From positions 1 through 45,370 of IMG/VR virus record IMGVR_UViG_3300047311_000306: a DNA stretch of 45,370 nt; one strand, written 5' to 3'. This DNA is from a virus. The translations under genes and the position numbers were made by a program. Below, in pieces: positions 13,516-42,883 of the stretch (positions are counted from its first letter, which is position 1; each line of letters starts with the position of its first letter). Below the pieces are notes generated by a model. The model searched no databases, was not told the origin of the DNA, and worked only from the letters and a program-made list of their open reading frames with translations.

Positions 13516-16462
<2,947 letters not shown>

Positions 16463-21511: not shown

Positions 21512-21549
21512 TTGACAGCAACAACAACAAAGCCTATGCGGTCAAGTTG

Positions 21550-22668
21550 ATGGCAACGGGCAGACGGCTCAACCGCAGCGACATTAGCGAAGTCGAGCGG
21601 GCCTTGAAACAGACCGGCGGGAACAAAAAACAAGCCGCCGCGCTTCTCGGTATCCAACGCAGCACCTTTTACAAACGACTAGAAAACGCCGGCAAGGTTA
21701 AGCCCGACGAGCGTGAGAAATTTACTATTCGGGACGCCGGCATACCCGGTGAGCAAACAGCCGAAGCCATCGCCGAGGAAGAAGCACGGGCGGAATTTGC
21801 CACCGAGCACACGCCGGAAGTCGGCAAGCACTCCTGGGAAATACGATCAGATAAGGCCAATAAATATAGGTTTCTTGCGTGCGGCGATCTTCACGCGGCA
21901 TCAAAGTATTGCCGCTGGGACGTCCGCGCTGGTCTGATGAAACATGCGGAGGAGTGGGGCGCGCAAGCTGTGCTCGATTGCGGCAATTGGATTGACGGCG
22001 AAGCTTCGTTCAATCGCTACGATCTCGAATGCGTAGGCATGGACGCGCAGATCCAGAACCTCGCCAGCAATTATCTCAAGAGCAAGGTACCAACCTACGC
22101 CGTGACCGGGGCCGACCACGAAGGCTGGTACATACGCCGGGAGGGGGTCGATATCGGCCGGTACGCCGAGGCAATCATGCGGGACGCCGGCCATCCGTGG
22201 ACAAATCTAGGCTACATTGAGGCGGATATCCTGCTGCGCAACGCCAATAGCGGCAAGGCTGCAACACTGCGGGTCATGCACGCGGGCGGCGGTTCCGCCT
22301 ACGCTATCTCCTACAGGCCACAGAAGATTTTGGAAAGCTACGAGGGCGGCGAGAAGCCTGACGTAACTTTGATCGGCCACTATCATAAATTGGACGCAGG
22401 GTTGATCCGTAATGTGTGGTATGGGCAAGTCGGCTGTCAGCAGGACCAGACGCCCTTTATGCGCCAGCGTTCATTGGAAGCTCATGTCGGTGGAATACTG
22501 CTTGAGATAGAGCAAGACCCAGGCGACGGCTCTATCTCTGGCTTTAGACCGGACATGCGGCGCTACTTTACGCGCAGCTACTACTTCAAATCCGGTCAAG
22601 CAAATCAGCGATGGTCCGGTCATGGCCCGATCAAGCAGATACCGCGAGCGCCCAACGTCAAAGAATAG
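21550..22668 (+). CDS. Metallophosphoesterase fused to N-terminal Fis-type helix-turn-helix
   Basis: A 372-residue protein. Residues 10-45 are an HTH_8/Fis-type DNA-binding motif (VERALKQTGGNKKQAAALLG, then IQRSTFYKRL). From residue 108 a calcineurin-like metallophosphoesterase begins: GDLH 112-115, GNWID 145-149 (the usual GD becomes GN), GADHE 187-191 (instead of GNHE), MHAGG 243-247 and GHYH 276-279. The substituted metal ligands may alter metal binding. Possible roles are a DNA-targeted nuclease or phosphodiesterase. The start ATG 21550 follows TTG 21547; no strong ribosome-binding site decides between them. Confidence 0.75.
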   Translation: MATGRRLNRSDISEVERALKQTGGNKKQAAALLGIQRSTFYKRLENAGKVKPDEREKFTIRDAGIPGEQTAEAIAEEEARAEFATEHTPEVGKHSWEIRSDKANKYRFLACGDLHAASKYCRWDVRAGLMKHAEEWGAQAVLDCGNWIDGEASFNRYDLECVGMDAQIQNLASNYLKSKVPTYAVTGADHEGWYIRREGVDIGRYAEAIMRDAGHPWTNLGYIEADILLRNANSGKAATLRVMHAGGGSAYAISYRPQKILESYEGGEKPDVTLIGHYHKLDAGLIRNVWYGQVGCQQDQTPFMRQRSLEAHVGGILLEIEQDPGDGSISGFRPDMRRYFTRSYYFKSGQANQRWSGHGPIKQIPRAPNVKE

Positions 22669-32806: not shown

Positions 32807-33256
32807 ATGCCGGAATGGAACGCGGTGCGAATGGTCGCAAGCCCGGAAGGCTTTGCGGTCTACGATAGCTCCAAGCGCAAGCTGGCGGCGGCGGCGGTCG
32901 ATGTGATGGTGCGACCAGGTGTGGCGCCTATGCTCATGCTGGCGCTCGCTGGCGGCAATGTGGACGTGCAAGGAAATTCACTGTTTGCCGTGGTTGATCC
33001 GCTGACGGGAAAGCCCAAGGTGGTAACGCGGATCGAATGGGCGGACGGCACGGCGAGCGAATTTCCCGCGCCTGAGAAGGTAGCGAAAACCGTAGTTAGC
33101 TCTGGCCCGGTTGAGCCTTTAGAACCTGCGCCGCCATTGACCGGAGAGGCACTTGAAGCACGCAGGCGCAATCGGGACAAGTTTAACGGTTCACAAGAAG
33201 CCGAAGATCAGGCCCTTTCTCCTTCTTCGCCCGTTTCTTCCGGGTCGGCGGAGTAA
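32807..33256 (+). CDS. Hypothetical protein, 149 aa, end overlaps leftward gene
   Basis: GGAGG precedes ATG 32807. Residues 1-90 form a beta-rich domain (EGFAVYDSSKRKLAAAAVDV, NVDVQGNSLFAVVDPLTGK, VVTRIEWADGT). The C-terminal 60 residues are Pro/Glu/Ser-rich and disordered. Its last 74 bases overlap the 3' end of the leftward HTH gene, so transcription from the two directions collides here. No family is recognised. Confidence 0.55.
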   Translation: MPEWNAVRMVASPEGFAVYDSSKRKLAAAAVDVMVRPGVAPMLMLALAGGNVDVQGNSLFAVVDPLTGKPKVVTRIEWADGTASEFPAPEKVAKTVVSSGPVEPLEPAPPLTGEALEARRRNRDKFNGSQEAEDQALSPSSPVSSGSAE

Positions 33257-33602
33257 GGACGCGTTTGCGCGGTGCGTGCGGGTCGTAGAGCACCGCGAGC
33301 GGGTCAAAGCTCGGTGTTAGCACTGGCGGGGGAGGCGGAGGAGGAGGATCCGGCTTTTTTGGCCTTTTGTATTTGAAATGGTCGGGCGGATTGCGGACGA
33401 GCGTTGCGTCATAAAGTGACAGAAGGATTTGAATGGGACGCGGGATTGATTGCTCATTGTTAAAGAAGCGGTAGAGCTGGCGGACGCCAACGCCGAGATA
33501 GATGGCGGTCTTTTTGCTGCACGGCTTTAGTCCTAACCTGTAGATCATGGTTAGGTACTCTGTATGGGTCATTTCCGTTGGTTCTTTTTTGCGTGGTGGC
33601 AT
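33183..33602 (-). CDS. HTH regulator with poly-proline linker
   Basis: A 139-residue protein. Residues about 11-62 form a DNA-binding domain similar to phage HTH proteins (MTHTEYLTMIYRLGLKPCSK, ATRVR-like LGVGVRQLYRF, SIPRPIQILLSLYD). A PPPPPPPP tract (about 87-94) leads into a Lys/Arg-rich C-terminus. It is a plausible repressor for one of the divergent promoters. The start at 33602 directly follows a CAACACG box like that of the hairpin-leader genes. It converges on, and overlaps, the rightward gene ending at 33256. Confidence 0.6.
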   Translation of the reverse strand: MPPRKKEPTEMTHTEYLTMIYRLGLKPCSKKTAIYLGVGVRQLYRFFNNEQSIPRPIQILLSLYDATLVRNPPDHFKYKRPKKPDPPPPPPPPVLTPSFDPLAVLYDPHAPRKRVLTPPTRKKRAKKEKGPDLRLLVNR

Positions 33603-33670
33603 CGTGTTGCGCCTGCGGCTCTCCGGTTTCTCGTGTTGCCGCGATTGTAGCTTGTAGGTGCAAAAGTCGT

Positions 33671-35218: not shown

Positions 35219-35647
35219 TCAAGCTGCCTTTCCTTTGAACTCGCGCAGTTTCTTTTTGATGTCTGCGATTTCCCACTGGTGCGAATGTTCGGCGTGTTCG
35301 ATCCCCTTGCGGGTAATCGCGGCCGGGTCCATGCCGCGCAGCTCCGCCAGCATTGCGGCTTCACAGGCTTTGCGCGTCGTGTAAGTCTGATCGACCGGGA
35401 CGCGCGCTACCGTAGTGCCGAACACATCAAAGATTTGGTAGAGGTAGCCCCGGCGCGTGTTGTTCCAGTCGAGGCCATCGGTGACGATGACCGCGAACAG
35501 CCACCCGCCCCATTGGCTATGGGCGTAGCAGACGCGCGACTTGTGAAACCGCAAATTGCCATCATCGACAAAATGCGTTCGGCCGCAGAGGTTGTCTTGC
35601 GCGTTTGCTTTTGCGCCGTCGAACCTGTCTCGGTATAGGTCTGGCAT
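35219..35647 (-). CDS. Hypothetical protein, 142 aa
   Basis: The start at 35647 is preceded by GAGAGG inside a hairpin-leader element. The product has a beta-rich N-terminal domain (NLRFHKSRVCYAHSQWGGWL, FAVIVTDGLDWNNT, GYLYQIFDVFGTTVARVP) and a charged helical end (HQWEIADIKKKLREFKG). No family is recognised. It heads a coupled leftward group. Confidence 0.55.
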   Translation of the reverse strand: MPDLYRDRFDGAKANAQDNLCGRTHFVDDGNLRFHKSRVCYAHSQWGGWLFAVIVTDGLDWNNTRRGYLYQIFDVFGTTVARVPVDQTYTTRKACEAAMLAELRGMDPAAITRKGIEHAEHSHQWEIADIKKKLREFKGKAA

Positions 35648-35665
35648 GGTTTAGCCTCTCGTGTT

Positions 35666-35681
35666 GCGCTCGGCAGAGCGC
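35666..35681 (-). repeat. Hairpin-leader element, copy f
   Basis: GCGCT-CGGCAG-AGCGC on the plus strand, with an extra closing C-G pair possible inside. It lies upstream of the gene starting at 35647. On the transcript strand it is followed by CAACACGAGAGG. The flank GGATTGCCGA is shared with copy b at 41.9 kb. A second small hairpin (CGGCA-GGAT-TGCCG, 35683-35696) is adjacent. Confidence 0.5.
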
Positions 35682-35698
35682 CCGGCAGGATTGCCGAT

Positions 35699-35728
35699 CT
35701 AGCCTTGCGTCCTCGCGGGCAAGGCTAG
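35699..35728. terminator. Perfect 10-bp stem hairpin between leftward genes
   Basis: CTAGCCTTGC and GCAAGGCTAG are separated by a 10-base loop. It follows the stop of the leftward gene at 35737 and precedes copy f of the hairpin leader. There is no T-run on the transcript strand, so an RNA-processing or stability site is as likely as termination. Confidence 0.45.
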
Positions 35729-35736
35729 GGCTGCAA

Positions 35737-35919
35737 TCAATCGCGGTCGAGGTCGGCGGTGTGGCGCATGGCTTCTAGCCAAGCTCGCTCGATCCGTTTC
35801 AAGCGAATTATCTCATCCATAGCGGCGCTGGTTAATTGCTCGCAATCAAGATCGGCGGCTTCAGTAAGATCAAGAGCAAGCATAACGCCTTCCATAAAGT
35901 CGCAAGCGGAATAGCTCAT
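35737..35919 (-). CDS. Small acidic protein, 60 aa
   Basis: ATG 35919 has GAGGAAAT directly upstream. The product is acidic and helical (MSYSACDFMEGVMLALDLTE, LDCEQLTSAAMDEIIRLKRI, ending DLDRD). No family is recognised. The last gene before the 10-bp hairpin. Confidence 0.55.
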   Translation of the reverse strand: MSYSACDFMEGVMLALDLTEAADLDCEQLTSAAMDEIIRLKRIERAWLEAMRHTADLDRD

Positions 35920-35928
35920 ATTTCCTCT

Positions 35929-36258
35929 CTATTCGTACAGGTGGTCACGTTTGTCGGCGCAGTCCGGGCAATAGCCGTCAAAGCCATCGCCCACCGTTCC
36001 CCATTCCGGCGTACCCTCGATTGCTCCGCATTCCGGGCAGACCTCGACCGGATCGCCGTCGACCTCGAATAAGCTATCCTTGTTCGGTTCATAAGTTAGC
36101 GACGCTTCGGCCAGGATCGGGTCGCCGTTATCCCATGCGCCAAAATTAGCATCGGCGCAGTTGAACTTTTCGCGCAGCAATTTTACCGCCGCCTCAAAGC
36201 TTTCCGCTTCGACGCGCATTGCAACGTCTAAGCGAAGATCGAAAGCAAATTCGGTCAT
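35929..36258 (-). CDS. Acidic zinc-ribbon protein, 109 aa
   Basis: The start is preceded by GGGGAGG. Residues 1-65 form an alpha/beta domain (EFAFDLRLDVAMRVEAESFE, AAVKLLREKFNCADA). The C-terminal zinc ribbon has VCPECGAIEG and YCPDCADK. The net charge is strongly negative, so it may mimic nucleic acid or bind a basic protein. The function is unknown. Confidence 0.6.
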   Translation of the reverse strand: MTEFAFDLRLDVAMRVEAESFEAAVKLLREKFNCADANFGAWDNGDPILAEASLTYEPNKDSLFEVDGDPVEVCPECGAIEGTPEWGTVGDGFDGYCPDCADKRDHLYE

Positions 36259-36262
36259 AGCG

Positions 36263-36493
36263 TCACGCCTCCCCGCAGTGGTTTACGATAAAATCTTCGG
36301 CACCGTCTGATAGCTCGCGCGCGATATTGACTGCCCCGGCCAAGTCGCCGCTTTCCCAATTCTCTACAATCGCATGGATTGCGGCGATTAGCCCCTCGCA
36401 TTGCTGGATTAGCTCGCGGTGTTTGTCTGTTGCTTGCTCAAGGCCGTCATTAAAGCCATATTCGTATTCTGGGTGGGTTCCGTATTGGCTCAT
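36263..36493 (-). CDS. Small acidic helical protein, 76 aa
   Basis: It starts with a 4-base overlap on the upstream gene; GGGGG lies upstream. The product is acidic and helical (YEYGFNDGLEQATDKHRELI, AIHAIVENWESGDLAGAVNI). No family is recognised. Confidence 0.55.
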   Translation of the reverse strand: MSQYGTHPEYEYGFNDGLEQATDKHRELIQQCEGLIAAIHAIVENWESGDLAGAVNIARELSDGAEDFIVNHCGEA

Positions 36494-36699
36494 CGTCGCC
36501 CCCGGAATTGGAGCACGTTGTTTCGGTTGTGCGACTGCCGCGCCAGCTTTTCGAGCAGGAAGCGGAGCCGCTTGAGGCTCCCGGCAATGCGCTCTGATTG
36601 CTTATCGTCGGCAGGTGAGCGCAGGCTTTCGAGATCGCGAGCGAAGTCGCGTTCTAACTGCTCGCGTGCGAGCCGCGCGCTAAAGAGTTCAACAGACAT
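36490..36699 (-). CDS. Small charged coiled-coil protein, 69 aa
   Basis: AGGAG precedes ATG 36699 in a hairpin-leader element. The product is a charged helix (ELFSARLAREQLERDFARDL, RIAGSLKRLRFLLEKLARQ) with a basic end. It may form a dimeric coiled coil. The function is unknown. Confidence 0.55.
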   Translation of the reverse strand: MSVELFSARLAREQLERDFARDLESLRSPADDKQSERIAGSLKRLRFLLEKLARQSHNRNNVLQFRGRR

Positions 36700-36718
36700 G
36701 GCTTAGTCTCCTGTGTTG

Positions 36719-36736
36719 GTCCCCCGGCAAGGGGAC
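36719..36736 (-). repeat. Hairpin-leader element, copy e
   Basis: GTCCCC-CGGCAA-GGGGAC, a perfect 6-bp stem with the conserved 6-base loop. On the transcript strand it is preceded by TTAACCCC and followed by CCAACACAGGAG and the start codon at 36699. Confidence 0.65.
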
Positions 36737-36745
36737 GGGGTTAAA

Positions 36746-37261
36746 TCATGCAACCTTGCGGGCTTCCGCCGCGTCCTGCTCGTAGTGCGCCGAGTTGGGA
36801 ACGCCGCAGATCATGCGAGCGGAATTTGACGGGCAGAAGCTTGTCGCCATTTCCCATTCGGCGATGAATTTTCCCTGCCGCAATACTCGCATGTAGAGCG
36901 CATCGCCGTGGAGCCCCGCGGCCGAGAGATAACCGTTTGTGTGCCCGTCCGGCGAGAATTGGAAAGCGATTTGATCGCCCTCTCGTAGTGTGTGCAAGAT
37001 CAGCGTCGCGTTGTGCTTTTGCGACGGGTACAGGTTTATCATTGCAAAGCATTTCACGCGACCGTCTGCAAGCCCATCCCGGCCGCGAAAGCCGCGCAAT
37101 GCAACCGAGGCCGAAACAATATGCTCCTGGTCCGTGGCGAACGGGTCCGCGTCCCCGTAGCGTTTGCGTTTGATCGCGCGCACGGCCGTATAGTCGCGGC
37201 TTAGGTGAACGCAAAGGCTATCGGCGTTGCGTAGCGCCTTCACATCGGCTTTCGTTAGCAT
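36746..37261 (-). CDS. Hypothetical protein, 171 aa
   Basis: GAGGAA precedes ATG 37261 in a hairpin-leader element. The product is a mixed alpha/beta protein (LTKADVKALRNADSLCVHLS, VKCFAMINLYPSQKHNATLI, GDQIAFQFSPDGHTNGYLSA) ending SAHYEQDAAEARKVA. Similar segments occur in phage proteins of unknown function. There are no catalytic motifs. Confidence 0.55.
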   Translation of the reverse strand: MLTKADVKALRNADSLCVHLSRDYTAVRAIKRKRYGDADPFATDQEHIVSASVALRGFRGRDGLADGRVKCFAMINLYPSQKHNATLILHTLREGDQIAFQFSPDGHTNGYLSAAGLHGDALYMRVLRQGKFIAEWEMATSFCPSNSARMICGVPNSAHYEQDAAEARKVA

Positions 37262-37278
37262 GGTCGTTCCTCATGTTG

Positions 37279-37296
37279 TGCGCCCGGCAAGGCGCA
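37279..37296 (-). repeat. Hairpin-leader element, copy d
   Basis: TGCGCC-CGGCAA-GGCGCA, a perfect 6-bp stem with the conserved loop. On the transcript strand the flanks are CTAACCCC upstream and ACAACATGAGGAA before the start codon at 37261. Confidence 0.65.
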
Positions 37297-37300
37297 GGGG

Positions 37301-37702
37301 TTAGCGTCGGGCTTGTAGTTCGGCAGGGTGCAAGGTTTCGCGCGCGTCCTTAATTGCGAGCCGTACCATGTCGGGGAAATAGTGACAGATGACGGTGTTG
37401 CGGGCCTTCTGCGCCAGCGTGTTACGGCCGTCCGCTGTGCTGGCGTGGTGTGCTGTCCAGAACTCGCGCTCTTTGCCGCTTTCGTAAACGGAACCGCCCA
37501 AAAGATCGCGCCCGACTATGTGGCCGTTGCTGATAACGACGACGCGCGAACAGAAGGCGACTAGCTCCCCGCTGGCAAGTTGGTCGCGTGTCTCGTGGTC
37601 GGGATCATCGCCGTCATATTCGTAATTTTCCTCCGGTGTTAATTGCAGCTCGACGGCAAAGTGCCGCGTGCGGAACGTCCAAACCGTTTCCCAATGGCTC
37701 AT
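37301..37702 (-). CDS. Hypothetical protein, 133 aa
   Basis: AAGGAAA precedes ATG 37702. The N-terminal half is beta-rich and acidic (WTFRTRHFAVELQLTPEENY, EYDGDDPDHETRDQLASGEL); the C-terminal half is helical (EFWTAHHASTADGRNTLAQK, MVRLAIKDARETLHPAE). The GxLVAFCSRVVV strand could be a beta-sheet core. No family is recognised. It is followed by hairpin copy d. Confidence 0.55.
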   Translation of the reverse strand: MSHWETVWTFRTRHFAVELQLTPEENYEYDGDDPDHETRDQLASGELVAFCSRVVVISNGHIVGRDLLGGSVYESGKEREFWTAHHASTADGRNTLAQKARNTVICHYFPDMVRLAIKDARETLHPAELQARR

Positions 37703-37923
37703 GTTCGCATTTCCTTTTCGTGTCGGTTGGTGTCGTGGTATCGGAACTCGTTAGCCAACATCTGCCCGCGGAAGTGGAGCGCGTAGAGACTGCCGCGGAA
37801 TACATCGTCCGAGATTTGCCGCGCCATGAATAGCTCGACAGCTGTTCGCAGTTTAGCGTCGAACAATTCCGCCGCGCCTTGCGGATCCGCAATCGAGCGC
37901 GCCCATTGGTCATAATCAGGCAT
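37699..37923 (-). CDS. Hypothetical protein, 74 aa
   Basis: GGAGG precedes ATG 37923 with suitable spacing. The product is helical (AELFDAKLRTAVELFMARQI, DVFRGSLYALHFRGQMLANE). Its end overlaps the next gene by 4 bases. The pattern ARxxSDDxxRGxLLALxFR resembles a segment in the gene at 38238 (ASARQVTDDTLRGWLLLRIY), so the two may be related. Confidence 0.5.
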   Translation of the reverse strand: MPDYDQWARSIADPQGAAELFDAKLRTAVELFMARQISDDVFRGSLYALHFRGQMLANEFRYHDTNRHEKEMRT

Positions 37924-38251
37924 TGGCGTGATCCTCCATTGCGAGCGGGGATAGCTCGAACCATTCCGCCGCCTCGTCTGTCGGCGCGTCGCTTTCCAGG
38001 TCCGCCGCCGAGTTCAAATGTTCCCCCAGGACTATGCACCCGTCCCAATAGCTCAAATGTTCGCGGATTGACGGCGTGTCGGGCCGGACCAATAGCCCGC
38101 AGTGCATTTCGTTTAGACTATTCTCGACCACCGTTCCCCGCGTGCCTGCCGGGACCATGCACTCGGGAAAAATATCGTGGTGATCCATGAATAGAACGCG
38201 GTCGCCCTCTTTTGCATCGCGCGCTAGTTCAAACCAGCTAAGCGTTTGCAT
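37916..38251 (-). CDS. Hypothetical protein, SH3-like, 111 aa
   Basis: GGGGG precedes ATG 38251. The product has a small beta-barrel look (RDAKEGDRVLFMDHHDIFPE, VPAGTRGTVVENSLNEMHCG, LLVRPDTPSIREHLSYWDGC), like SH3-type translation or transcription modules, then an acidic C-terminus. No family is recognised with confidence. Confidence 0.5.
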   Translation of the reverse strand: MQTLSWFELARDAKEGDRVLFMDHHDIFPECMVPAGTRGTVVENSLNEMHCGLLVRPDTPSIREHLSYWDGCIVLGEHLNSAADLESDAPTDEAAEWFELSPLAMEDHANA

Positions 38252-38567
38252 TGCACGCCCCCGAATAATCTAGACCTGGACAATGCGGCATCGTCGCCGT
38301 AGCGCGATCTAGGAAGGGATCGTGCGCTCGCTTGGCAAAGCACACGCCCCGGTCGCAATGGTCATCGCTGATCGTGGTGCAATGGTCATCGCGCGTGATC
38401 TTGCCTTCAAGCTCGTAAATGCGGAGTAAGAGCCAACCCCGCAAAGTGTCATCCGTCACTTGGCGCGCCGAGGCCATCATAAGCCGCGCGCACGCTCGCG
38501 CCGTATCGGCCTCAAAGTACGCGGGCCGATACCGTCCGAGAAAGTAAATTCCCCCGCTGATGGTCAT
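38238..38567 (-). CDS. Hypothetical protein, 109 aa
   Basis: GGGG precedes ATG 38567. The N-terminal part is helical (ADTARACARLMMASARQVTD, DTLRGWLLLRIYELEGKITR). The C-terminal part has Cys/His/Asp residues (DDHCDRGVCFAKRAHDPFLD) that could bind metal. Its end overlaps the next gene by 14 bases. The central ARQVTDDTLRG motif echoes the 74-residue gene at 37699. Confidence 0.5.
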   Translation of the reverse strand: MTISGGIYFLGRYRPAYFEADTARACARLMMASARQVTDDTLRGWLLLRIYELEGKITRDDHCTTISDDHCDRGVCFAKRAHDPFLDRATATMPHCPGLDYSGACNANA

Positions 38568-38570
38568 GGC

Positions 38571-38906
38571 TCAATACCCCATTGCTTCGGCTGAATAGTC
38601 GCGTTGTCCGTGATCGCCTTGCTCCCAAGCGGGGAACGTCACGCCATCGACCATGTTGCCCGCGAAGGCATTGCGCGCGGCGAAATAGCTTTCCCCGTAT
38701 TGCGTAAGCCGTCCGTCACAGTCCACACCATCGCAGACCCATTCGTGCGTCACGATCTTGCCGTCGAAAGTCCAGGCATCGCTGTCGCGGGTCCACCCTT
38801 CGTCTGTCGCATGGCCCGCGCTATGGCGTAGCGTCTGCCCTGCGCGCATTTTGATTAGGACGGGTTCGACCGGCCCGTAGTGCCAAAAGCGGATTGTCTT
38901 TTTCAC
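38571..38906 (-). CDS. Hypothetical protein, GTG start, 111 aa
   Basis: GTG 38906 overlaps the upstream stop by 4 bases (GTGA). The product is beta-rich (TIRFWHYGPVEPVLIKMRAG, DSDAWTFDGKIVTHEWVCDG, CDGRLTQYGESYFAARN). CDGVDCDG could bind metal. No family is recognised. Confidence 0.55.
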   Translation of the reverse strand: MKKTIRFWHYGPVEPVLIKMRAGQTLRHSAGHATDEGWTRDSDAWTFDGKIVTHEWVCDGVDCDGRLTQYGESYFAARNAFAGNMVDGVTFPAWEQGDHGQRDYSAEAMGY

Positions 38907-39154
38907 TGTCCTGCCCTCCGAGCTAGGTTATCCTGACCGCGCGGACCTGTAAAAACGAGAGGAACGCGATCCCACCCGATTGCGCCCTCGCTTGGCTGAT
39001 CTGGTATTTCGTCGATATTGTCGGGGCTGCGCCGCGTTACGTAGTACGCGCGCCAAAATTTAATTACGTCTTTAATGTTGCTCGCGCGGACGAATAGATC
39101 GTACTCCCCGATGGCTGGCGTTTCGCCGTCATCGTGAACATAATAGAGGGTCAT
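38903..39154 (-). CDS. Hypothetical protein, 83 aa
   Basis: GAGGCGA precedes ATG 39154 within a hairpin-leader element. The product is alpha/beta (MTLYYVHDDGETPAIGEYDL, ASNIKDVIKFWRAYYVT, PLVFTGPRGQDN). No family is recognised. Confidence 0.55.
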   Translation of the reverse strand: MTLYYVHDDGETPAIGEYDLFVRASNIKDVIKFWRAYYVTRRSPDNIDEIPDQPSEGAIGWDRVPLVFTGPRGQDNLARRAGQ

Positions 39155-39172
39155 TTTAGTCGCCTCATGTTG

Positions 39173-39192
39173 GCGTCCCCGGCAAGGGACGC
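39173..39192 (-). repeat. Hairpin-leader element, copy c
   Basis: GCGTCCC-CGGCAA-GGGACGC, a perfect 7-bp stem with the conserved loop. On the transcript strand the flanks are TTAACCCC upstream and CAACATGAGGCGACTAAA before the start codon at 39154. Confidence 0.65.
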
Positions 39193-39196
39193 GGGG

Positions 39197-39391
39197 TTAA
39201 TCCAAGGTCCGCCAATCGCCGCGCATACCGCTGCAGCGATAAAAACCGCCGTGTTCGCCGAGAGCGAAACGAATATCGCGGATCACGGCGCTTGCTCGTT
39301 CGTGATACTGATCGCCATCGAACGTGAATTGCGCGCGGAATGCTCGCAGGAGCGCCAGCAAGAGCCGCAATTTAATTTCGTTCAGTGTCAT
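39197..39391 (-). CDS. Small basic helical protein, 64 aa
   Basis: GGGAGG lies close to ATG 39391. The product is helical (LNEIKLRLLLALLRAFRAQF, YHERASAVIRDIRFALGEH). It lies between the DpdA-like gene and hairpin copy c. The function is unknown. Confidence 0.5.
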   Translation of the reverse strand: MTLNEIKLRLLLALLRAFRAQFTFDGDQYHERASAVIRDIRFALGEHGGFYRCSGMRGDWRTLD

Positions 39392-39402
39392 ATCCCTCCC
39401 CC

Positions 39403-40410
39403 TTAGATTTCGGTTTCATCGAATTGTGCCAAACGGTCGCCAGCCTTTGTGCTTTCGAGCATTTGGCTAATAATCTTATGCGCCTGCCAGAGGTCGCGTA
39501 TCTCGATCACATCGGCCGGCGTCTGTGCCTCGCCCTGGTCGATTAGCGTCGCGCACATAGCGTCGCTGTCATCCGGTCGCACTCGTCGGTTAAATCCCTC
39601 TTCGGTATTCTCGCCGTAGCGCCCCGACATATCCAACAATATCTCTAATGCCTGCCGCAGTTTCATGGGTTCTCCTTCCAGCTCCAAATTGAGATAGCCT
39701 TGCATGGGCATTGCCGCGATTGCCGCCTCGAACTTTACCGCCTCGCGCGGGCTATTACGGTCCCTGCCTTCGCGCCGCGCGGCATAACTCCACGCCATGC
39801 TGTCGGCACTTTCCAGGCAATCGCGCACCCGTTGACTGGCGAGCGCCGTTGTTTTCAGTCCAAAGCCGTGCAAGCGCAGATCGGGGCGTTTGCGTTTGAT
39901 CGCGGTCAGAATTGCCTCGATTTGCTGCACATCGGCGTTGCGCTTGCAGATCGACCCTATGCCGACATACATGCCGGTTTGAAGCCGCGCGCCGTATTGG
40001 TCGATATGATCGAGATACGATTGCAGCGAATAGCCTTGCAACACCGGCATAAGATAGGTTCCAGTTACCAAGGCGCGGAGCGCATCGTAACGCTCGATTG
40101 TCAATCGCTGGTGATCCGCGACCGTTAGGCCGGTTTTTTCCAAAAGGAACTGCTCGCACATAAAATCTTGCGATACGGCCGCGATCATGCCGGAATTGAT
40201 TGCGGCGAGGCGATTAACTTCCGCCGCGTATTCCGCGGGCCCATGCCGGTAACGGCCATAGCGCGCCAACTCCGAGAAAGCCGCGCTATCAAGGATAAAT
40301 TCGGAGCTGGGTATCCGCTTTTTGCGGCCGCGCACGGCGTTGACGCTGATAAAGGCGCGCTCGACGCTATCGGCATCGGCCGGATGATGCATGCCCACAA
40401 AAAATTTCAT
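39403..40410 (-). CDS. dpdA: DpdA-like tRNA-guanine-transglycosylase-family DNA modification enzyme
   Basis: A 335-residue TIM-barrel protein of the TGT/DpdA superfamily. Blocks include KFFVGMHHPADADSVERAF, Asp41 in FILDSAAFSEL, Asp82 in VSQDFMCEQF, the MPVLQGYS strand, GMYVGIGSICKRN, LRLHGFGLKTTAL and Asp203 in SADSMAWSYAARREG. Paired Asp residues and VGIGS/HGFGLK loops are those of base-exchange transglycosylases. DpdA proteins replace guanine in DNA with 7-deazaguanine bases, protecting phage DNA from restriction. No preQ0-synthesis genes are in the window, so the precursor may come from the host or from genes outside. It is unlikely to be a host-type tRNA TGT because of its length and context. 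Confidence 0.8.
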   Translation of the reverse strand: MKFFVGMHHPADADSVERAFISVNAVRGRKKRIPSSEFILDSAAFSELARYGRYRHGPAEYAAEVNRLAAINSGMIAAVSQDFMCEQFLLEKTGLTVADHQRLTIERYDALRALVTGTYLMPVLQGYSLQSYLDHIDQYGARLQTGMYVGIGSICKRNADVQQIEAILTAIKRKRPDLRLHGFGLKTTALASQRVRDCLESADSMAWSYAARREGRDRNSPREAVKFEAAIAAMPMQGYLNLELEGEPMKLRQALEILLDMSGRYGENTEEGFNRRVRPDDSDAMCATLIDQGEAQTPADVIEIRDLWQAHKIISQMLESTKAGDRLAQFDETEI

Positions 40411-40496
40411 CGGATAACAAGTCCCAAAAAGAGCGCCAGATAGGCGCTATACGCGACTATGACCGCAACCGAGATTGCGAGCCAAAGCCGTATCAT
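40407..40496 (-). CDS. 29-residue single-pass membrane peptide
   Basis: A very short leftward ORF from ATG 40496, overlapping both the upstream gene and the DpdA-like gene by 4 bases. It is one hydrophobic helix (LWLAISVAVIVAYSAYLALF, then LGLVIR). The double ATGA overlap supports translation; it might also serve only to couple DpdA translation. Confidence 0.5.
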   Translation of the reverse strand: MIRLWLAISVAVIVAYSAYLALFLGLVIR

Positions 40497-40693
40497 CGCC
40501 CCATGCTCCGCCACCCAAGATGCAAGCGCATTGAATTACGCGCCAGCATTACGAACAGCGCCACTTGCGACGCCTCCCATTCGTAAGCGGTGCCAGCCAG
40601 AACGCGCGCCTTAATCTCGCGCGCCTGCCGTAGCTCGTCCCAAGCCGCGCGGCGATATTTATTCGCCCGATAGGTGATCGAGTTAAACGGCAT
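40493..40693 (-). CDS. Small basic protein, 66 aa
   Basis: GAGGGG precedes ATG 40693. The product is basic and helical (RANKYRRAAWDELRQAREIK, SQVALFVMLARNSMRLHLGW). It overlaps the upstream gene by 11 bases. No family is recognised. Confidence 0.55.
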   Translation of the reverse strand: MPFNSITYRANKYRRAAWDELRQAREIKARVLAGTAYEWEASQVALFVMLARNSMRLHLGWRSMGR

Positions 40694-41063
40694 TAGCCCC
40701 TCGCCCTAGCTTCGCGATAACCTGCTCCCAGGTATCGCCTTGCGCGCGGACGTGGAAAAACATGCTGTTGGAAATGCCGACTGTGATTTTGTAGTGTCCG
40801 AGGAGGCTCATTAGCTTTTTGCAATTCTCGCCTGCCGCATCCGCTGCCAAGACGAGCGCCTGATATTCCGCATCCGCTGCCAGGAGCGCCGCCTTGCGCG
40901 CGTCCCGATCCGCTCGCAAGCGGTCCCGTTCCGCGTTTGCGGCTTTCAACGCCTCGCGCGCGGCTTCCCGCACATCGGAACTCGGCGCGGAGGCGTCAAC
41001 GCGGTAGCCCATGTCGCGACCAAGTATCGCCGCCACTTTCTTAATTGCTACTGCCCGTTCCAT
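40683..41063 (-). CDS. Coiled-coil protein, 126 aa
   Basis: GGGGG precedes ATG 41063. Residues about 25-75 form an Ala/Arg/Asp-rich coiled coil (AAREALKAANAERDRLRADR). The C-terminus is a small alpha/beta region (LMSLLGHYKITVGISNSMFF). No family is recognised. Its neighbours are small membrane and basic proteins and the DpdA-like gene. Confidence 0.55.
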   Translation of the reverse strand: MERAVAIKKVAAILGRDMGYRVDASAPSSDVREAAREALKAANAERDRLRADRDARKAALLAADAEYQALVLAADAAGENCKKLMSLLGHYKITVGISNSMFFHVRAQGDTWEQVIAKLGRGANAV

Positions 41064-41064
41064 G

Positions 41065-41244
41065 TCATCCCCCTGCCTTTCTTACCGCGTCCCAATGAGC
41101 CGCTACAGCGGCTTTAACCTTAGCAGCACGCGCCAGCGCATTTTGCCGCCGCGTTGCGGTAAAGCACCATCCGCAAGAGCATTGCACTTGCACGCTAATA
41201 GGGCTGCGCACTGTGAACATGCGGTGTGCAATGGGGTCGGTCAT
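41065..41244 (-). CDS. Small zinc-like protein, 59 aa
   Basis: A leftward ORF from ATG 41244, overlapping the upstream gene by 4 bases. The product has a CSCGWCF motif (VQVQCSCGWCFTATRRQNAL) and a helix ending AHWDAVRKAGG, with a C-terminal His. This is a common phage zinc-knuckle type (C-x-C-x2-C plus His). It is probably a nucleic-acid-binding accessory. Confidence 0.6.
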   Translation of the reverse strand: MTDPIAHRMFTVRSPISVQVQCSCGWCFTATRRQNALARAAKVKAAVAAHWDAVRKAGG

Positions 41245-41570
41245 CGGTCTAGCTTTCTTACCGCGTCAATCAGATCAGACTGCGCAGCTACATCACTGAA
41301 TAGACCGTGATCTGCCGGGGCTTGCGCGACCGTGGGGCGGAGCGGCGCATCCGCCCTCCGTTGGGCCAAGGTCGCCTGATCGCGCGCCAGCGGGTTCGCC
41401 AAGCCCAAGGAACCGCTAATCTGAAACGGTCCTACCATCGCCCCCGGTTGCGCCTTGGCAACGGTGTCGGCAATCATGGCATCTTGTTGCGCGGCAGGAA
41501 CGCCTTTAGCCGTCCATAGTGCGCGCAGCTCCGCTTCCGGCCCTTTAATCAACTGTCGAATTGTCGCCAT
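41241..41570 (-). CDS. Hypothetical protein, 109 aa
   Basis: AAGGGG precedes ATG 41570; upstream in-frame codons to 41600 lack a site. The N-terminal half is helical (TIRQLIKGPEAELRALWTAK, QQDAMIADTVAKAQPGA), followed by a disordered Pro/Ala-rich stretch. The end has HGLFSDVAAQSDLIDAVRKL. No family is recognised. Confidence 0.5.
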   Translation of the reverse strand: MATIRQLIKGPEAELRALWTAKGVPAAQQDAMIADTVAKAQPGAMVGPFQISGSLGLANPLARDQATLAQRRADAPLRPTVAQAPADHGLFSDVAAQSDLIDAVRKLDR

Positions 41571-41614
41571 CGCCTTATCCCCTTGGCCCTCGTCAGACAC
41601 CGCATCACGGTGTT

Positions 41615-41634
41615 AGCGTCCCCTCCGAGACGCT
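41615..41634 (-). repeat. Hairpin-leader-like element, divergent copy
   Basis: AGCGTC and GACGCT pair around an 8-base loop lacking CGGCAA. On the transcript strand it is followed by TAACACCGTGATG, similar to the CAACA tail of the other leaders. It is listed as a degenerate member because the loop differs. Confidence 0.35.
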
Positions 41635-41643
41635 TTCGGCCTT

Positions 41644-41835
41644 TCAATACGCGCAGATCGCCGCCGCCTCGTTCTCGGCATAGCCCTCGTCGAAAAGCTT
41701 CCGCCAAGACGCCAGCCCAGATTGCCGCCGCAGATCGTACCCAATCCGCGCATCAATCACATTCAGCCACGCGGCAAAGCACTCACTCTCGAACCGCTCC
41801 ATCTCGCCGTCCGTAAGTATCGGTAACAGTGTCAT
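41644..41835 (-). CDS. Small acidic protein, 63 aa
   Basis: GGGGAAA precedes ATG 41835 in a hairpin-leader element; ATG 41856 is alternative but lies on the hairpin. The product is helical and acidic (DGEMERFESECFAAWLNVID, KLFDEGYAENEAAAICAY). The pattern of acidic surface and Cys residues is shared with other small genes here. The function is unknown. Confidence 0.55.
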   Translation of the reverse strand: MTLLPILTDGEMERFESECFAAWLNVIDARIGYDLRRQSGLASWRKLFDEGYAENEAAAICAY

Positions 41836-41852
41836 CTGATTTCCCCGTATTT

Positions 41853-41870
41853 GCACCCCGGCAAGGGTGC
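41853..41870 (-). repeat. Hairpin-leader element, copy b
   Basis: GCACCC-CGGCAA-GGGTGC, a perfect 6-bp stem with the conserved loop. On the transcript strand it is followed by AAATACGGGGAAATCAG and the start codon at 41835. The CAACA tail is altered to CAAATA. The upstream flank matches copy f (GGATTGCCGA on the plus strand). Confidence 0.6.
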
Positions 41871-41920
41871 GGCTGGATTGCCGACAAGAGGGCGGATTTT
41901 AACCGCCCTCATAGCTGCAA

Positions 41921-42088
41921 TCAGCGAACGGTGCCGCGAATGTCATGCTCGACAAGGAACGCCTCGGCGGCGACGGTGCTGGCAAAGCGCGGCAATGCAC
42001 GGCCGCAGTCGCGAAGCGCCAACCCGCTGTCCGCATAAACAAGAACGCCATCCGGGCGGAGGGTGAGATAAGGCCAATCGAACCGCAT
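41921..42088 (-). CDS. Small hypothetical protein, 55 aa, first gene of leftward operon
   Basis: GGGAGA precedes ATG 42088 in a hairpin-leader element. The product is beta/alpha (MRFDWPYLTLRPDGVLVYAD, LALRDCGRALPRFASTVAA). It is the promoter-proximal gene of the 8-kb leftward accessory operon, so it is likely to be expressed early and strongly. No family is recognised. Confidence 0.55.
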   Translation of the reverse strand: MRFDWPYLTLRPDGVLVYADSGLALRDCGRALPRFASTVAAEAFLVEHDIRGTVR

Positions 42089-42110
42089 TGAAAATCTCCC
42101 GTGTTGCGTC

Positions 42111-42124
42111 CGCACGGCAATGCG
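42111..42124 (-). repeat. Hairpin-leader element, copy a
   Basis: CGCA-CGGCAA-TGCG; the stem may extend to 7 bp with one mismatch. It lies a few bases downstream of the predicted start of the leftward promoter, so it would be at the very 5' end of the operon transcript. It is followed by CAACACGGGAG and the start at 42088. Confidence 0.55.
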
Positions 42125-42135
42125 AACGTGCAATC

Positions 42136-42163
42136 AGCATACTAGCGTAAGAATGATAGTCAA
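42136..42163 (-). promoter_or_regulatory. Leftward promoter of accessory operon
   Basis: Reading leftward: TTGACT (42163-42158) and TATGCT (42141-42136) separated by 16 bases. The -35 box matches 5 of 6 and the -10 box 4 of 6. The start would be near 42129, producing a short leader that begins with hairpin copy a. It lies in a 210-base AT-rich divergent region. Confidence 0.55.
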
Positions 42164-42298: not shown

Positions 42299-42883
42299 AT
42301 GCCAATGCTCGATAACACTAAGCATGAACTGTTCGCGCAGCACGTCGCGCGCGGCAAGTCTATGACCGAGAGCTATGTCACCGCAGGATATAGCGAAAAT
42401 GGAAACAACGGCCCTAATCTCGCGCAGGTGCCAGCAATAGCCGAACGCATAATCGAATTAAAGCAGATCGTAGCGGCAAGGGCGCAGGTGACCGCTGAGC
42501 GCGTGCTGGCCGAGCTCGCGCGGATTGGGTTTGCCGATGTGACGCAAGCCGTTGAAATTAAACGCGGTATGGCAAAAATCAAGGATACAAAAAACCTGCC
42601 GCAAGACGTGAAACAAGCCATTTCCGAGATCCGCTCCGGCCGCGACGGCACTGTGGTAAAGTTCCATGATAAGGTCCGCGCGCTCGATGCGCTCGGCAAG
42701 CACCTGGGATTGTTCAAGGAAAACATAGAGTTGAACGTGAATGTTTCGCTGGCAGACCTGGTCAACGGCAGTTACAAGCTCGCGGCTGGCGAACAGCCGG
42801 GCGTGATCGAGCACCAAGCGAATGAACCCGATGCTTCCCATGCGCTTCCCAATGAGCAGGGCGACGGCGGCGAGGCTAGCTAG
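42299..42883 (+). CDS. terS: Terminase small subunit (Terminase_2-like)
   Basis: A 194-residue DNA-packaging protein that recognises phage DNA and recruits the large terminase. The N-terminal HTH-like part has KHELFAQHVARGKSMTESYV and TAGYSENGNNGPNLAQVPA. Next come ERVLAELARIGFADVTQAVE and IRSGRDGTVVKFHDKVRALD, then ALGKHLGLFKE, matching the Terminase_2 layout. The C-terminus is acidic and disordered. ATG 42299 (or 42305) has no clear ribosome-binding site. The large subunit is not next to it in this window, which is unusual. Confidence 0.85.
   Translation: MPMLDNTKHELFAQHVARGKSMTESYVTAGYSENGNNGPNLAQVPAIAERIIELKQIVAARAQVTAERVLAELARIGFADVTQAVEIKRGMAKIKDTKNLPQDVKQAISEIRSGRDGTVVKFHDKVRALDALGKHLGLFKENIELNVNVSLADLVNGSYKLAAGEQPGVIEHQANEPDASHALPNEQGDGGEAS

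Follow-up and report, generated by a model that had tools for sequence, protein, structure and literature searches.

The leftward operon and its six hairpins

The window analysed here is the whole stretch of DNA, the 45,370-base virus record IMGVR_UViG_3300047311_000306, which is a linear fragment of a podovirus-like phage. The record encodes a 2056-residue protein with matches to internal virion protein families and a distant one to internal virion protein D of T7-like podoviruses, whose hosts are alphaproteobacterial, cyanobacterial, and others. A small terminase gene lies at 42299; of the genes examined, none was recognised as coding for a terminase large subunit, a portal, or a capsid. On the plus strand, a tandem pair of collagen-like (GNTGATG...) tail or fibre proteins is encoded at 13516-16462, and the protein encoded at 21547-22668 carries an HTH_8 domain, a Fis-type HTH fused to a metallophosphoesterase-like domain. 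This last gene has eight relatives in IMG/VR, at 48-59% identity, and none in the annotated phage collection.

On the minus strand, about 20 small genes form a leftward operon (35219-42088). One of its members, at 39403-40410, is a DpdA-type (Pfam PF23859) 7-deazaguanine DNA-modification gene, which has about 100 additional C-terminal residues beyond the part covered by its relatives. In this early operon, six minus-strand hairpins are found between 35666 and 42128, each of them ahead of a gene start. Hairpin 1 (42107-42128), CGTTCGCA-UUGCCG-UGCGGACG, has a stem of 8 bp with one U.G pair and lies in the leader of gene 42088-41921, with the ATG 18 nt downstream. Hairpin 2 (41853-41870), GCACCC-UUGCCG-GGGUGC, is a 6-bp stem 17 nt ahead of the start codon of gene 41835-41644, and hairpin 3 (39173-39192), GCGUCCC-UUGCCG-GGGACGC, a 7-bp stem 18 nt ahead of that of gene 39154-38903. 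The 6-bp stems of hairpin 4 (37279-37296), UGCGCC-UUGCCG-GGCGCA, and hairpin 5 (36719-36736), GUCCCC-UUGCCG-GGGGAC, precede genes 37261-36746 and 36699-36490 by 17 and 19 nt, respectively. Hairpin 6 (35666-35681), GCGCU-CUGCCG-AGCGC, with 5 bp, stands 18 nt before the start codon of gene 35647-35219. Thus, the stems measure 5-8 bp and all six differ in sequence, while the loop is YUGCCG throughout (five times UUGCCG, once CUGCCG); it can also be described as a UGCC tetraloop with a U.G or C-G closing pair.

A preliminary description of the sequence had reported five of these elements by their CGGCAA loops, as written on the opposite strand, and all five are present on the minus strand at the reported places. 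For the one given at 42111, the loop stands, and the proposed 4-bp stem CGCA/TGCG is replaced by the 8-bp stem with one G.U pair. The sixth copy, at 35666, had been set apart by its loop CGGCAG; on the transcript strand this reads CTGCCG and obeys the common YUGCCG rule.

The distance from the 3' end of the stem to the ATG is 17-19 nt, and that from the stem to the Shine-Dalgarno (SD) sequence 5-7 nt. At hairpin 1, linker, SD, and spacer to the ATG at 42088 occupy 42089-42106 (minus strand, CAACACGGGAG), and the equivalent linkers, read from the sequence, lie on the same strand at 41836-41852, 39155-39172, 37262-37278, 36700-36718, and 35648-35665. The 3' flanks of the stems of hairpins 1-6 read CAACACG, AAATACG, CAACATG, CAACATG, CAACACA, and CAACACG (in hairpin 6 the first C belongs to the stem), each followed by the SD. 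The CAACAYGAGG-like ribosome-binding sequence previously noticed after most hairpins is borne out, with CAACAYG exact in four of the six copies (the exceptions being CAACACA at 36719 and AAATACG at 41853) and an SD in all. The start region of the HTH gene 33602-33183 had been singled out as having the same tail without the hairpin, and indeed CAACACG abuts the ATG there and no hairpin is present. In addition, a second CAACACGAGA is found about 30 nt upstream of this CAACACG (33590-33650, minus strand), with no YUGCCG hairpin, and the region is perhaps a decayed copy of the element.

Upstream, hairpins 3, 4, and 5 are directly preceded by TAACCCC (39193-39199, 37297-37303, and 36737-36743, all on the minus strand), as had been stated for three of the copies; the upstream genes 39391-39197 (at hairpin 3) and 37702-37301 (at hairpin 4) end on its TAA as their stop codon. 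The internal copies at 35666 and 41853 are preceded by CGGCAATCCWGCCG, not TAACCCC. This exact motif, common to 35683-35696 and 41870-41883 on the minus strand, forms a small hairpin, CGGCAATCCTGCCG directly 5' of hairpin 6 and CGGCAATCCAGCCG directly 5' of hairpin 2, and the former could pair with the loop too. Since the CGGCA(A) of CGGCAATCCWGCCG is complementary to the loop, a pseudoknot or a switch is possible at hairpins 6 and 2. Further upstream of these two elements, strong 8-bp hairpins without T-runs are seen at 35701-35726 (AGCCTTGC...GCAAGGCT) and 41888-41910 (GAGGGCGG...CCGCCCTC), which are possible processing or weak termination sites.

Seven leader or intercistronic stretches of the operon are at least 39 nt long, and six of them contain the element, which is found at none of the junctions that overlap or measure at most 11 nt; the 82 nt ahead of gene 40410 are taken, from the sequence, to be filled by a small open frame overlapping the gene start. 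In the seventh long stretch (41571-41643, minus strand) there are two different hairpins, AGCGTCTCGGAGGGGACGCT and ACACCGTGATGCGGTGT, of which the first has the arm GGGGACGC in common with hairpin 3. A candidate seventh copy at about 41600-41625 (GCGTCTCGGAGGGGACGC) was rejected, as its loop differs and the likely start codon at 41570 has its own SD. At the head of the operon, a sigma-70-like sequence (TTGACT-16-TATGCT, 42136-42163, minus strand) is a weak match (9/12) to a promoter, and its predicted transcription start coincides approximately with the first base of hairpin 1. Such matches are no commoner in the record than in shuffles, so a leader beginning at hairpin 1 is to be taken as putative.

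Pairing, compensation and occurrence elsewhere

The word TTGCCG occurs 110 times in the record, and a stem of at least 4 bp accompanies it only at the five hairpins. In 40 dinucleotide shuffles, TTGCCG hairpins with stems of at least 6 bp number 0-1 per shuffle, and the best count for any hexaloop is 2-3, compared to five for TTGCCG in the record. The shuffled-sequence control proposed in the preliminary description thus gives no shuffle that equals the observed count (at most 3 vs 5), and the hairpin family is confirmed as real and far above chance.

Across the six copies, 97% of the stem cells are paired and five of six stem positions are compensated. The covariation score is 0.88, compared to 0.24 in shuffled copies and at most 0.23 with the partner slid, these counts being drawn from paralogous copies within one genome, of which six are few. 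Among the copies of this genome, the structure is retained while the sequence has drifted, in agreement with the earlier observation that the stems differ and always pair. A covariance model built from the six copies, the search proposed at the outset, finds exactly these six in the record and no further copies; they score 38-52 bits and the next best site about 13 bits, and, as the six copies built the model, it is solely their separation from all other sites that carries information.

Outside the record, no loop family with at least three different stems before an SD and start codon was found in 182 other loci (1.6 Mb). No Rfam family gave a covariance match at its gathering score. Pattern scans of IMG/VR returned, among the matches listed, sequences without stems or weak and single ones; one of them (L116) was rejected because its stem consists mostly of weak pairs and its record has no second copy. 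The 22 matches of a GTDB pattern scan, one with 5 pairs, are at about chance level. The covariance model retrieved only chance-like matches from 0.77 Mb of phage loci, mostly kin, and five single matches from 385 alphaproteobacterial genomes, which lack the SD and start geometry and were taken as chance. A literature search, with most subscription journals outside its reach, brought up no description of a UUGCCG-loop element.

Protein searches recovered relatives of single genes only (the DpdA-type gene, an exonuclease, and the HTH-phosphoesterase). The relatives of the DpdA-type gene and other kin are not syntenic and contain no such elements, and the two most similar records (G005 and G002), scanned piecewise, have no such hairpin family. 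Because no close relative of the podovirus fragment was found, the lack of the element elsewhere may be due to missing close kin just as well as to genuine rarity. No candidate RNA-binding protein was recognised, and the genes downstream of the hairpins gave no informative family match.

Elements at the start site, with or without a reader

RNA-type pairing with compensation, an invariant loop, a fixed distance to the start codon, and confinement to one operon characterise the six hairpins. Because the stems are free in sequence while the loop, the flank, and the distance are fixed, their position suggests that a folded RNA is under selection where the initiating 30S subunit has its upstream edge. 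The six would then be copies of one cis-acting mRNA element, with the order 5-8 bp free-sequence stem, YUGCCG loop, CAACAYG linker, SD, and start codon. Lying 17-19 nt from the ATG, the hairpin would border the 30S footprint on its upstream side and leave the SD unpaired, and a trans-acting factor, encoded by the phage or the host, would recognise the invariant loop together with the CAACA flank and raise or lower 30S loading on the six cistrons together, making them a post-transcriptional regulon. That the hairpins are translation-initiation elements of the mRNA, read in trans through the loop, is given a probability of about 0.45. We infer the reading in trans, translation as the step affected, and the sign of any effect from this arrangement; the pairing with compensation and the fixed start spacing are observed and uphold the action at the RNA level, the constant-loop structure, and the link to the ribosome-binding site proposed earlier. 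More tentative is the narrower idea that a dedicated RNA-binding factor reads the YUGCCG loop and CAACA flank and sets the translation of six early cistrons together.

Nearly as likely as a loop-reading factor is a passive role, in which the intercistronic hairpins would protect mRNA 5' ends, block upstream structure, or serve ribosome standby, as CUUCGG-like hairpins of T4 might, with no dedicated reader. Among known systems, these T4 hairpins come closest to the present element. Hairpins of the form (X)2-8 CUUCGG (Y)2-8 occur widely between phage genes and in large numbers in T4, and mRNA stabilisation is among the roles ascribed to them (Tuerk et al., 1988, as described in PMC8948821), as for the T4 gene 32 mRNA (PMC8948821). 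The T4 family has the same logic of a constant loop, variable complementary stems, and several intercistronic copies in one phage, and the scan used here finds seven of its distinct stems in the first 50 kb of T4. Should the weak promoter match be genuine, the transcript would, moreover, begin at its 5' end with hairpin 1. The two families differ in their loops, since that of T4 is UUCG closed by C-G and the present one is YUGCCG in all six copies, and also in their placement. In the tested stretch of T4, only one of the seven hairpins precedes an SD and start codon, compared to five of five UUGCCG hairpins here; all copies of the present element lie 17-19 nt before a start codon and are associated with the CAACAYG linker, whereas those of T4 are not tied to starts.

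Exceptional thermodynamic stability is a mark of the T4 loop; YUGCCG is not known as extra-stable, and UUGCCG shows no enrichment as a hairpin loop in kin phages, in contrast to CUUCGG in T4. In 0.75 Mb of unselected kin-phage DNA, 0.35% of UUGCCG occurrences carry a stem of at least 6 bp, which is the mean of all hexamers and places UUGCCG at rank 956 of 2210. As UUGCCG is not favoured as a loop elsewhere, its invariance is not easily put down to loop stability alone, and it is not known to be among the special loops of the Turner set. In in-silico folding, with thermodynamic models that rate unusual loops poorly, the hairpin neither hides the SD nor opens it more than composition-matched shuffled upstream sequence does, which gives no support to a purely passive role through folding. 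The idea of an insulator that exposes the SD was rejected for its lack of effect against these shuffled controls. Roles that need a stem alone, such as mRNA stability and ribosome standby, are still plausible.

A factor that reads the loop would resemble the readers of translational operators known from T4 (those of RegA, gp32, and gp43; T4 review, PMC3014915) and from RNA phages (the coat operator), where a protein of the phage can recognise local structure at a ribosome-binding site. The present element differs from these operators in that the hairpin lies upstream of the SD and start without overlapping them, in that six near-identical sites serve one operon, and in that the reader is only putative.

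Other roles and the meaning of the element

It is improbable that the hairpins are RNA-processing or decay sites, at which a nuclease would cut in or next to the hairpin and so part the leftward genes from one another. The presence of a copy in almost all true intercistronic gaps and a constant single-stranded CAACA flank would suit such a role; against it, the stems fall well short of what RNase III needs, and the flank lacks the A/U-richness of RNase E sites.

Action at the DNA level, as operators, N4-type hairpin promoters, or recombination boundaries between gene modules, is less probable still. The elements are inverted repeats in intergenic DNA, and the record encodes HTH proteins, namely the HTH_8 protein of 21547-22668 and, by the account of the preliminary description only, that of 33183-33602. 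However, half-sites that differ around a constant centre are the reverse of a dimer operator, the elements always lie on one strand at a fixed distance from a start codon, and differing stems do not favour homologous exchange. Boundaries resembling integron attC sites were rejected, as no inverted R-box pair was seen by eye in the flanks. N4-type promoters are short hairpins with a 3-nt loop and a conserved promoter sequence. Here, the loop has 6 (or 4) nt, the stem sequence is free, and five of the six copies lie between genes of one operon, which speaks against the promoter role suggested earlier. As to a phage virion RNA polymerase, no Pfam polymerase match was found in the large proteins of this record, which lacks part of the genome, and the direct RNA_pol search had no positive control. 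Of the three roles proposed in the preliminary description, the binding site of a translational regulator fits best and the N4-type promoter poorly.

The extended start-associated sequences (ESAS) of cluster K mycobacteriophages are positioned like the present hairpins. They are 17-bp consensus repeats with a variable spacer of 4-13 bp, whose departures from the consensus are reported not to support RNA pairing, so that DNA-binding sites are favoured (PMC3203893). Both are repeated elements directly before the starts of many small non-structural genes, with an inverted repeat upstream of a conserved sequence like a ribosome-binding site and an upstream stop codon that sometimes falls within the motif. 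In contrast to the conserved 17-bp inverted repeat and variable spacer of ESAS, the present element has variable, compensated stems of 5-8 bp around a constant 6-nt centre, and CAACAYG and an SD take the place of the SAS consensus GGGATAGGAGCCC before the start codon.

Least likely of all are transcription terminators, pause sites, or nut-like antitermination sites, even if GC-rich hairpins between genes, and the constant loop on stems that differ between phages in boxB of lambdoid nut sites, recall them, because no T-run follows the hairpins and a terminator scan lists none at them (as the preliminary description had held in calling simple termination unlikely), no boxA-like constant sequence is found in all six, and the fixed spacing is to the start codon and not to a transcription feature.

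A loop-reading factor for the six cistrons is most likely, as it explains the data with the fewest additions, and it stands as a candidate factor only. Known phage translational control works mostly through one operator or a few, and we know of no described phage example of a multi-gene translational switch with a structure-coded operator. The hairpin design known from the CUUCGG family of phages, a constant loop on a free stem, recurs here with a different loop and strictly positioned before gene starts. If the proposed role is true, a repeated, structure-coded start element would offer the phage a simple means of post-transcriptional control over many genes at once, and the hairpin loop would be a ready bait for finding the regulator.
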